DNA of 20,404 bases from a virus. The position numbers and the translations under genes were made by a program. Positions 10,389-12,302 of the stretch are shown here, in pieces. Where the stretch lies: positions 1-20,404 of the IMG/VR virus record IMGVR_UViG_3300009149_000370. One strand, written 5' to 3'. The notes beneath the pieces were generated by a model that saw only the letters and a list, made by a program, of their open reading frames with translations, did no database searches and had not been told where the DNA came from. Numbering within the stretch: position 1 is the first letter of the stretch; each line of letters begins with the position of its first letter.

Positions 10389-10634
10389 ATGTCAGCTATC
10401 GCAAAACCTATGGCCCATTCAACCACATCAACAAACGGATACAACCTTATCCCTGTTGAGATGGTAACTGATATGACAGATCTTTCTGTCCCAGCCATTG
10501 CTAACTACGGTCCTAAATTTGTTCTTTCCTTTACTTTATCTAACGGAACAAACAAGCAGATCACCTATGCAACTTCAGCTCTTTTGGCTACTGCTAAGGC
10601 GGCTTACAGAACAGCGTACTCTGCAAACTTCTAG
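10389..10634 (+). CDS. Small hypothetical protein, 81 aa
   Basis: The protein begins MSAIAKPMAHSTTSTNGYN and is neutral, Ala/Thr/Ser rich, with a predicted beta region (KFVLSFTLSNGTNKQITY) and a C-terminal Ala-rich helix ending ANF. It is the only gene between the divergent promoter and the strong terminator at 10672-10702, so it forms a monocistronic unit with its own promoter, a possible 3-prime protecting hairpin and terminator. This looks like an abundantly expressed single-gene transcript. Candidate roles are a virion decoration protein or an early host-takeover protein. I do not recognise it and the choice is open. Confidence 0.75.
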   Translation: MSAIAKPMAHSTTSTNGYNLIPVEMVTDMTDLSVPAIANYGPKFVLSFTLSNGTNKQITYATSALLATAKAAYRTAYSANF

Positions 10635-10671: not shown

Positions 10672-10702
10672 CCCTACCGAATAGATTCGGTGGGGGTTTT
10701 TT
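10672..10702 (+). terminator. Intrinsic terminator of the 81-aa gene
   Basis: ACCGAAT (10676-10682) pairs with ATTCGGT (10685-10691), extended by CCCT with GGGG, and is followed by six T residues and GCTTT. This is a strong Rho-independent terminator. Its right arm and T-tract mark the beginning of the first copy of the duplicated segment. Confidence 0.85.
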
Positions 10703-10807
10703 GCTTTATTAACAATACCTGTTACTTGTTAATATTTTACTTTTTTGTAAAATTGTTTGTATCTTGCAACCGTAAAATAAGATGTAATCTAAAATACATT
10801 AAGAAAA
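10685..10807 (+). repeat. Duplicated regulatory segment, copy 1
   Basis: This segment matches 11096-11219 with about ten substitutions and one inserted T over ~124 bases. It contains the right arm of a terminator with its T-tract, an AT-rich spacer, a promoter-like TATCTTG box (10760-10766) and a short hairpin with ATGTA and TACAT arms near 10782-10799. It precedes the 83-aa gene. Confidence 0.9.
10745..10766 (+). promoter_or_regulatory. Possible promoter in repeat copy 1
   Basis: TATCTTG (10760-10766) resembles the TAnnTTTG -7 box with one T missing. The nearest upstream TTG (10745-10747) is closer than usual. The same box is kept in copy 2 although bases around it differ, which supports function. 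It would drive the 83-aa gene. Confidence 0.35.
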
Positions 10808-10830
10808 TAAATAAAATAAATAAAATAAAT
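10804..10830 (+). repeat. Three tandem 9-bp repeats in the leader of the 83-aa gene
   Basis: Three exact copies of AAAATAAAT end four bases before the ATG at 10835. The unstructured A-rich leader fits the Shine-Dalgarno-independent initiation usual in Bacteroidota. Copy number could vary and tune translation. Confidence 0.85.
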
Positions 10831-10834
10831 AGTT

Positions 10835-11086
10835 ATGGAAAAAAATAGAAAAGTTTCATCAATATCTAGAGATTTTGATGGAAAAGAAATTCAAGGAAAA
10901 CTTATTGAAAGATCAGGTTTGTTTGGTAGTAATGTTTCTAAAGAAGTTTATAACATGCCTGGAGGTGGTAAGCATGTTGAAAAAACTAAAACTAATAAAA
11001 ACGGTGATGTAGTTTCTAGATCATCAAAAGATACAAAAGTAAATCCATATAAAGGTGGTGACCAGTTTTTGAAACACCTTCCTTAG
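10835..11086 (+). CDS. Small basic hypothetical protein, 83 aa, moron-like
   Basis: The protein begins MEKNRKVSSISRDFDGKEI and is Lys/Ser/Gly rich with alternating short strands, a central MPGGGKHVEKTKTNKNGD stretch and a basic C-terminus. No known motif was identified. The codons are much more A/T-rich than those of neighbouring genes (AAA, GAA, AAT, TCA). The gene is bracketed by the two copies of a ~124-bp regulatory segment, each with a promoter-like box, and has a repeated A-rich leader. Foreign base composition plus its own regulatory elements suggest an acquired, independently expressed cargo gene (moron). Function unknown. Confidence 0.72.
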   Translation: MEKNRKVSSISRDFDGKEIQGKLIERSGLFGSNVSKEVYNMPGGGKHVEKTKTNKNGDVVSRSSKDTKVNPYKGGDQFLKHLP

Positions 11087-11095
11087 TATATATCT

Positions 11096-11219
11096 ATTCG
11101 GTGGGGGTTTTTTGCTTTATTAACAATACCTGTTACTTATTAACATTTTACTTTTTTTGTGAAATTGTGTATATCTTGCGCCCGTAAAAGAAGATGTAAT
11201 CTAAAGTACATTGAGAAAA
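11096..11219 (+). repeat. Duplicated regulatory segment, copy 2
   Basis: Second copy of the segment at 10685-10807. It keeps the terminator right arm and T-tract, the TATCTTG box (11172-11178) and the small hairpin, whose substitution falls in the loop and leaves the ATGTA/TACAT arms intact. The matching left arm of the terminator is missing here, so this copy probably does not terminate transcription well. It precedes the structured non-coding region. Confidence 0.9.
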
Positions 11220-11224
11220 AAAAT

Positions 11225-11605
11225 TAAGGAACTTTGTATTAGCTTCCTAAAAATCTCCTCAACGATGACTTTAGACGTCTTAGAGGGTTAGAAAACATCC
11301 CTCAAGATCCTGCGATCGACAGGGATTTTTCTTTTATAGGGTTTTAGTCCAGGATTACTCCCTGTTCGGTAAGAGCAAAATAATTCAGATGTAACGGTTG
11401 TTGCGCTACTGTAAAATGTTCTGCTCTGTCCTAAAATGACAACAGACAACTGCCAAGGGAAACCCACAGCAGTAGCACCCTGACGCAGGTTGAGGGAAAC
11501 TTGACAATAGGTTGCTGGTACCCTTACAAAGTAAGGGTTACTTTGAAAGGAAGGGCTAGCTCCCCCTCTTGGCAGGGAAAAATTTTCTTTAACAACAACT
11601 TAACT
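11225..11605 (+). ncRNA. Candidate structured RNA or long leader upstream of the HNH gene
   Basis: About 380 bases carry no credible gene on either strand but are dense in hairpins. These include 11226-11249, GAGGG/CCCTC at 11283-11303, ATCCTG/CAGGGAT at 11307-11326, AGAGCA/TGCTCT at 11372-11377 and 11422-11427, and TCTGT/ACAGA at 11425-11446. A nested ACTGC/GCAGT stem around GGGAAACCC lies at 11449-11473, and AGCACCCT/AGGTTGCT (11474-11516) encloses CAGGTT/AACTTG. Two overlapping perfect 8-bp hairpins follow at 11520-11545. The promoter-like box in repeat copy 2 would produce an RNA beginning near 11184. I do not recognise a known riboswitch, RNase P, tmRNA, tRNA or a complete group I intron core. 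It could be a free RNA, a regulatory leader, or a decayed intron. Confidence 0.5.
11283..11335 (+). promoter_or_regulatory. Attenuator-like competing hairpins with T-tract
   Basis: ATCCTG (11307-11312) or alternatively ATCCCT (11297-11302) can pair with CAGGGAT/AGGGAT (11320-11326), which is followed by TTTTTCTTTT. The ATCCCT strand can instead take part in the GAGGG/CCCTC stem (11283-11287 with 11299-11303). A terminator-like and an alternative fold are therefore mutually exclusive. An eight-codon frame MTLDVLEG (11265-11291) overlaps the first arm and might act as a leader peptide. Confidence 0.4.
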
Positions 11606-12148
11606 ATGGCAAAGGGAAGAAAGAAAACAATAGCAGACGCAAGCTGCCCATCCTACGGTGGTGAGACGGAGCTCAAGCACATACGCACAGCTAGGAGAAA
11701 GATGTTCCGTTACCTTTCCTCGTGCGGACATATTATTAACGCTGCAGATACTGACGAAAAATCAATAACTTTGTTTGCCCTACTTCAGGGAATAGAGATA
11801 GAGGAGGGTGAAGACTTAAAGGCGTGGCTTATGAACTTATATCACTCTGGTGCAAGCAAGGTTATCCACAAGGAGGACTACGCATTCTACTCCACAACTC
11901 AGTGGAGGGAGCTTCGTTCATGGGCCCTCGATCATTACGGAAGAAGGTGTATGAAGTGTGGTGACGATACCTGTATAGACAGGGACCTTCATATAGACCA
12001 CATAAAGCCGAAGGCAAGGCATCCAGAGTTGGCACACGACAAAAACAATGTGCAGGTGTTGTGCTGGCTGTGTAACAGAACCAAGTCGGACAGGGGAGAG
12101 ATGGACTACAGACCAAAAGCTCTTGACGATGAAGGTAGGGATTTGTGA
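11606..12148 (+). CDS. HNH endonuclease, 180 aa
   Basis: The chosen start is ATG 11606 (MAKGRKKTIADASCPSYGG), after an A/T-rich leader. A longer reading frame from 11501 would run through the hairpins and is unlikely. Residues 115-160 hold a complete HNH module: zinc cysteines C115 and C118, the LHIDHIKPK segment with H132, a NNVQVLCWLCN stretch with N148, C153, C156 and N157, then KSD. This is a metal-dependent DNA nuclease. The N-terminal ~90 residues are helical and may bind DNA. Free-standing HNH enzymes in phages serve as homing endonucleases or packaging and replication nucleases. Its place after a structured non-coding region favours a mobile homing type, but this is inference. A downstream gene overlaps its last 20 bases. 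Confidence 0.88.
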   Translation: MAKGRKKTIADASCPSYGGETELKHIRTARRKMFRYLSSCGHIINAADTDEKSITLFALLQGIEIEEGEDLKAWLMNLYHSGASKVIHKEDYAFYSTTQWRELRSWALDHYGRRCMKCGDDTCIDRDLHIDHIKPKARHPELAHDKNNVQVLCWLCNRTKSDRGEMDYRPKALDDEGRDL

Positions 12149-12302
12149 CGTTCATAGTCTGGCAAAGGGTGACAACAGAAAGAGGCTTGTCTCCTACTGT
12201 AAGGTCTGCGATTCGTGGATCTGCGAGTCTTGTAGGCCAGACACGTTACTAAGAGCAAGGGCAATGATAATAAAAGCAAAAAACAAGTTAACTGGTAAAT
12301 AG
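12129..12302 (+). CDS. Cys-rich zinc-binding miniprotein, 57 aa
   Basis: The ATG at 12129 lies inside the end of the HNH gene (20-base overlap). A longer frame from 12048 is probably a shadow of the HNH gene. The protein has C6-x2-H9 followed by C24-x2-C27-x4-C32-x2-C35, spaced like a small zinc-binding domain, then a basic helix rich in Arg and Lys (LRARAMIIKAKNKLTGK). It may bind nucleic acid or a host protein. Translational coupling to the HNH gene suggests co-expression. Comparable Cys-rich small proteins are common in Bacteroidota phages, but the function is unknown. Confidence 0.78.
   Translation: MKVGICDVHSLAKGDNRKRLVSYCKVCDSWICESCRPDTLLRARAMIIKAKNKLTGK

Follow-up and report, generated by a model that had tools for sequence, protein, structure and literature searches.

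What does a long gene-free stretch do in front of an HNH endonuclease gene in an otherwise densely coding virus? The window analysed here, the whole 20,404-nucleotide stretch of IMG/VR record IMGVR_UViG_3300009149_000370, contains such a segment. A sequence-only reading had marked it as a candidate structured RNA of no known family, without a plausible gene, and had offered three roles for it: a free-standing RNA, a riboregulator of the HNH gene or a degenerate self-splicing intron. Both premises were borne out. Our survey of open reading frames found no credible gene between 11087 and 11605; the largest frame inside the segment is a 59-aa GTG frame on the minus strand, and the HNH frame could be extended upstream from a TTG alone, while its relatives begin near the ATG at 11606. 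Rfam searches of 11080-11700 gave no meaningful match, either at the gathering cut-off or up to E 10, and ARAGORN detected no tRNA or tmRNA in the segment. BLAST of the RNA against phage and plasmid records found no match outside its own species, and nhmmer with the whole RNA returned nothing significant (a weak match, L110, has E 2.2). The roughly 420 bases without a gene very probably give rise to a real RNA with an intricate fold that belongs to no named family, and a structured leader RNA on the plus strand is, in our judgement, likely.

Table 1. Features of the leader region in window coordinates, followed by related RNAs given as locus:positions.
Feature	Positions	Strand	Basis or remark
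Intrinsic terminator, CCCTACCGAAT/ATTCGGTGGGG followed by T6	10672-10702	+	terminator scan: 10 pairs, 6 GC
128-bp direct repeat, copy 1	10685-10812		90.7% identical to copy 2
128-bp direct repeat, copy 2	11097-11224	+	carries promoter-like TATCTTGC (11172-11179) and putative leader 5' end
Gene-free segment	11225-11605	+	before HNH gene at 11606
Stem A, UCUAAAGU.ACAUUG.AGA (11200-11217) with UCUCCUCAACGAUGACUUUAGA (11254-11275)	11200-11275	+	encloses hairpin AGGAA/UUCCU
Candidate antiterminator, GAGGG (11283-11287)/CCCTC (11299-11303)	11283-11303	+	computed pair probability
Candidate intrinsic terminator, AGAAAA.AUCCCU (AGAAAACAUCCCU)/AGGGAUUUUUCU, then TTTTA	11290-11336	+	-16.2 kcal/mol, z -4.3
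Hairpin Pd, AGAGCA (11372-11377)/TGCTCT (11422-11427) with inner stems	11372-11427	+	probability 0.94
Hairpin Pe, ACTGC (11449-11453)/GCAGT (11469-11473) around GGG-AAA-CCC	11449-11473	+	probability 0.97; invariant
Hairpin Pf, AGCA (11474-11477)/TGCT (11513-11516) with CAGGTT (11486-11491)/AACTTG (11498-11503)	11474-11516	+	invariant
Hairpin Pg, ACCCTTAC-AAA-GTAAGGGT	11520-11538	+	L002 version: ACCTCTAC-AAT-GTGGGGGT
A-rich ribosome approach, largely unpaired, without Shine-Dalgarno	11591-11605	+	ensemble folding
HNH endonuclease gene, 180 aa	11606-12148	+	PF01844 E 7.5e-10; phrog_144 E 2.6e-19
R2 RNA, loci 1-5	L103:2331-2417, L092:2179-2267, L083:2177-2264, L078:2109-2196, L125:1632-1718		directly 5' of HNH ATG
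R2 RNA, loci 6-10	L060:2182-2270, L122:2177-2264, L087:2180-2270, L072:2193-2282, L059:1236-1325		directly 5' of HNH ATG
RF02932 before HNH	L111:2296-2417, L068:2187-2302, L086:124-249, L108:1276-1401		between terminator-like (or pseudoknotted) hairpin and HNH

Folding, a check proposed in that first reading, gave the segment a minimum free energy of -109.9 kcal/mol (z -2.79), and none of 100 shuffled sequences did as well. The strand cannot be read from the fold energy, because the reverse strand is equally stable (z -2.81). In shuffle tests, z for individual hairpins lay between -2.3 and -2.7, and that for the terminator hairpin was -4.3; the first 157 nt of the leader alone gave z -3.0, and the second domain as a whole is weakly better than shuffles (z -1.7). 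The four stems picked out earlier from the letters are all present at or near their original positions. However, the fourth, TCTGT/ACAGA (11425-11429/11442-11446), shares bases with the AGAGCA/TGCTCT stem and is absent from the minimum-energy fold. The left border at 11225 also needs revision: it cuts off the 5' strand of stem A, the first long stem, and the unit probably starts about 40 bases upstream.

The region upstream bears on how such a leader could be made. The strong terminator at 10672-10702 closes the preceding gene (10389-10634), and the leader would therefore be transcribed separately; the scan that listed this terminator found 3 sites against 1.7 in shuffles, barely an excess. 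The promoter-like TATCTTGC lies in the second copy of a 128-bp direct repeat, which is single copy in L002 and L003, the two closest relatives. Since a -33 box was not found at the usual spacing from it, we treat the promoter as putative, and we infer that transcription of the leader starts near 11184. The repeat copies flank an 83-aa gene (10813-11096) that is missing from these relatives. Proteins 77-85% identical to its product occur in six other viral contigs (L004-L009), which share the upstream DNA too, and the gene is a recent acquisition, perhaps with a leader of its own. The preceding gene, of 81 aa, is nearly unchanged in the relatives, with 0 or 1 substitutions over its 246 bases, although its flanks differ by 3-6%.

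We propose that the segment forms the bulk of a structured 5' leader of about 420 nt (about 11184-11605, plus strand), which would be made from its own promoter ahead of the HNH gene and those that follow it, and whose promoter-proximal part (11200-11336) would act as a transcription attenuator. Of the mechanisms considered, attenuation of the HNH operon has the best support, and we advance it tentatively from predicted helices. Among the three original options we favour a riboregulator of the HNH gene, given the promoter-like repeat, attenuator-type helices and terminator hairpin that precede that gene. The antiterminator and the terminator hairpin overlap in CCCT, a third helix, UCCUC/GAGGG, was also computed, and the three helices in the first 150 or so bases are mutually exclusive. 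When stem A holds the UCUCCUC strand, GAGGG would be free to pair with CCCUC as an antiterminator, and transcription would read through. If stem A were unformed, or if a phage or host factor displaced it, UCCUC would take GAGGG, a pairing that would free the CCCU strand and with it the terminator hairpin; transcription would then stop at the T tract and leave an RNA of about 150 nt. The second domain (11336-11590) would be present only in read-through transcripts, in which it would most likely stabilise the mRNA or bind a regulator.

Computed folding thus places a mutually exclusive terminator and antiterminator upstream of the gene, and it gives the two known versions of the leader different balances. 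The 8-bp core of stem A, TCTAAAGT/ACTTTAGA, has a mean pair probability of 0.96 in the window leader and 0.54 in that of L002. For the GAGGG/CCCTC pairing the probability is 0.84 when the 11184-11336 transcript is folded and 0.55 for the full leader, against 0.21 in L002, while the terminator hairpin has 0.02 in the full leader of the window and 0.59 in that of L002. The full-leader ensemble accordingly prefers the antiterminator in the window and the terminator in L002. These opposite preferences would suit a poised switch, though noise in the energy model may also account for them. A kissing loop of TCTAAAGT/ACTTTAGA, of a kind present in 18 of 3000 shuffles, was considered and rejected, as the pairing continues into a longer uninterrupted stem.

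Relatives were sought in IMG/VR with the HNH, MCP, TerL and 189-aa proteins, and the same two contigs (L002 and L003) were recovered each time; their RNAs are identical to each other, and their aligned flanks share about 95-97% identity with the window. A DNA pattern of Pe matched 10 viral contigs, of which only the two known relatives are relevant; the other eight have seemingly unrelated flanks. The RNA segment differs from the relatives by 9 substitutions in 381 bases (2.4%), compared with 4.1% in the HNH gene, 5.3% in the 189-aa gene that follows it, 8.7% in the tail gene and 3.0% in the TerL part. Five of the nine substitutions fall in Pg, one in the triloop and four in the stem, where U-A becomes C-G on both sides, C-G becomes U-G and U-A becomes U-G. 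Because these G-U changes pair only in plus-strand RNA, the Pg helix exists in RNA of that strand. Pd, Pe, Pf, Pg and the terminator stem all remain intact under these substitutions (the A to G change at 11393 keeps its pair in Pd as G-U), and stem A, the antiterminator and the terminator are invariant between the two distinct sequences known. The compensatory changes looked for in relatives amount to one double change, in Pg, within a single pairwise comparison. Such pairing-preserving changes are good but thin evidence for the structure.

Within the second domain, Pf is less firmly predicted in the window (0.50) than in L002 (0.69-0.71). The string GGGCTAGCTCC at 11553-11563 resembles the UGGCUCCG motif of other leaders, a likeness too weak for homology. 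The HNH gene is the first gene after the leader, which reaches to 15 nt from its start, and no terminator was found between the second domain and the gene. In the A-rich approach, most positions are unpaired with probabilities of 0.7-1.0; 11599-11601 and 11604-11605 reach just 0.35-0.52. An 84-aa frame (12048-12302) overlaps the end of the HNH gene and has a weak B-box zinc-finger match just below the Pfam cut-off.

Is the arrangement peculiar to this virus? A tblastn search with the HNH protein led to phages whose HNH gene follows a gap of about 470-550 nt (Sulfitobacter phiGT1, Vibrio 2.095.A and 1.276.O, Xanthomonas Kintu), with fold z values of -2.9 to -4.8. Viral and bacterial contigs then supplied 160 HNH loci. 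Gaps of at least 300 nt precede 17 of 73 viral HNH genes and 7 of 154 other ORFs (Fisher p 4.6e-5, an approximate value, given near duplicates among the loci and a crude ORF measure). The earlier argument that phages rarely keep such non-coding stretches must therefore be qualified, since long gaps are common before this HNH family. The gaps are also folded: z falls below -2 in 18 of 38 pre-HNH gaps against 4 of 36 coding controls, with means of -2.4 and -0.8, respectively.

Ten of these loci carry, directly before the HNH ATG, a pseudoknotted terminator-like RNA of about 90 nt, which we call R2. In R2 the loop of one hairpin pairs over 7 bp with a bulge of a long terminator hairpin, creating a pseudoknot, and a T tract follows the terminator hairpin. 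In the alignment of the ten loci, 99.4% of cells pair and both sides change in 18 of 36 pairs, a result reached in 0 of 500 shuffles; 4 of the 7 pseudoknot pairs covary. None of the six R2 loci searched (L103, L092, L083, L072, L059 and L087) has a match at the Rfam gathering cut-off, and the RNA is apparently undescribed. The R2 model recruits further HNH loci, including L068, where R2 directly precedes RF02932. The recurrence of a promoter and a folded, terminator-like leader before related HNH genes counts in favour of the attenuator proposal.

RF02932 (Betaproteobacteria-1 RNA) itself was found by Rfam in four gaps other than these ten. In phage contigs, a GGCTCC(G/A) motif stands just past its Rfam 3' end, a hint that the model does not span the whole RNA. 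Vibrio phages (L031:1010-1476, L036:2501-2959, L037, L038, L039, L041, L042 and L043) have a promoter and a pseudoknot/terminator RNA in common at one site for accessory genes ahead of the capsid genes. What follows this RNA differs: an HNH gene, a calcineurin phosphoesterase, a DNA methylase or an Orf172-type gene. Parts of the RNA match 317 phage records. Leader RNAs of this kind are not strictly tied to HNH genes: the Vibrio phage stretches precede other genes, and RF02932 lies at six Burkholderiales loci without this HNH.

These observations bear on the first rival of the attenuator, a free-standing phage non-coding RNA acting in trans, either as the product of about 150 nt that ends in the T tract or as the whole RNA of about 400 nt, with the HNH gene as a mere neighbour. 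A promoter-like region of its own and an internal terminator would suit such an RNA. So would the pre-HNH position shared by RF02932, an sRNA gene in Rfam, its occurrence without this HNH at all six flanking Burkholderiales loci, and the phosphoesterase and other genes that follow the Vibrio phage stretches. However, the computed default in the window is antitermination, the leader runs to within 15 nt of the HNH start with no intervening terminator, and the window matches neither RF02932 nor R2. We consider a free-standing RNA unlikely, if far from negligible.

Alternatively, the leader could control translation of the HNH gene. Hairpins that mask the ribosome site have been documented in the early transcripts of the T4-type genes I-TevI, I-TevII, I-TevIII, segB and mobE, and phage HNH genes are often of homing type (PMC2988022). 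The window resembles these leaders in having RNA structure upstream of a phage nuclease gene, but theirs mask the ribosome site (PMC2988022), whereas its structure sits upstream and does not cover the start. Simple masking is disfavoured because the HNH start codon lies in an A-rich, mostly open stretch without a Shine-Dalgarno sequence, and we regard translational control as improbable.

We give little credence to a DNA element, such as a cos or packaging site or an origin, in place of an RNA. HNH genes are often near terminase genes, and TerL is encoded on the other strand at a distance of 1.3 kb; the equal fold energy of both strands also counts in favour of this reading. On the other hand, the G-U-compatible changes in Pg keep pairing in plus-strand RNA only. 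A degenerate group I or II intron carrying the HNH frame is highly improbable: HNH nucleases are often intron-encoded and the RNA has a suitable size, but no intron family model in Rfam matches even at E 10, no gene is interrupted, and a terminator and a promoter-like repeat stand directly upstream of the RNA, with a complete HNH gene downstream.

The preferred reading, an attenuated leader, gives this RNA a readable, switch-like anatomy, and the RNA is better conserved than the genes downstream. On its own the window is of moderate interest. More broadly, one phage HNH family often stands behind long folded leaders, including an apparently unnamed RNA with overwhelming covariation, which may outweigh the window itself as a lead. 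To our knowledge, large structured phage RNAs are mostly undescribed. The leaders offer a testable route to the control of HNH nucleases by phages, and perhaps a function for the orphan RF02932.

The HEARO RNA of IsrB (OMEGA) systems, about 300 nt long, likewise lies 5' of an HNH protein gene. It is disfavoured as a model, since Rfam found no HEARO match and Pfam finds an HNH domain alone, without RuvC, in a protein of 180 aa. In the four phage loci with RF02932 the arrangement is that of the second domain of the window, but this family is also found apart from HNH, and its model does not match 11080-11700 up to E 10. R2 shares with the window a promoter, a short 5' strand, a long hairpin with a T tract and the HNH gene, but in R2 the 5' loop pairs with the 3' bulge of the terminator hairpin, whereas in the window the 5' strand forms the continuous stem A, and the best plus-strand score of the R2 model on the window is 3.7 bits. 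A covariance model of the window's second domain (R1) matched none of 165 HNH loci. The common layout of a promoter-like region, a terminator-like first domain, a second folded domain and an HNH gene fits, but the RF02932, R2, R1 and nhmmer searches were all negative, and we therefore claim analogy and not membership. With layouts alike and no model match, common ancestry of the window RNA and the other HNH leaders is unproven. It would be a long shot to place the window RNA, as a divergent member, in a wide and undescribed superfamily of phage RNAs with two domains, which would recur before HNH and other accessory genes and consist of a promoter, a pseudoknotted terminator domain and a multi-branched second domain. 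In that case the RNA of the HNH-linked branch could also work jointly with the nuclease, for instance bound to it as a cofactor. Transcription attenuators in general consist of mutually exclusive helices that end in a terminator hairpin and a T tract. The window differs from them in its long second structured domain; it resembles them in its three predicted, mutually exclusive helices and in a candidate terminator hairpin followed by a T tract.
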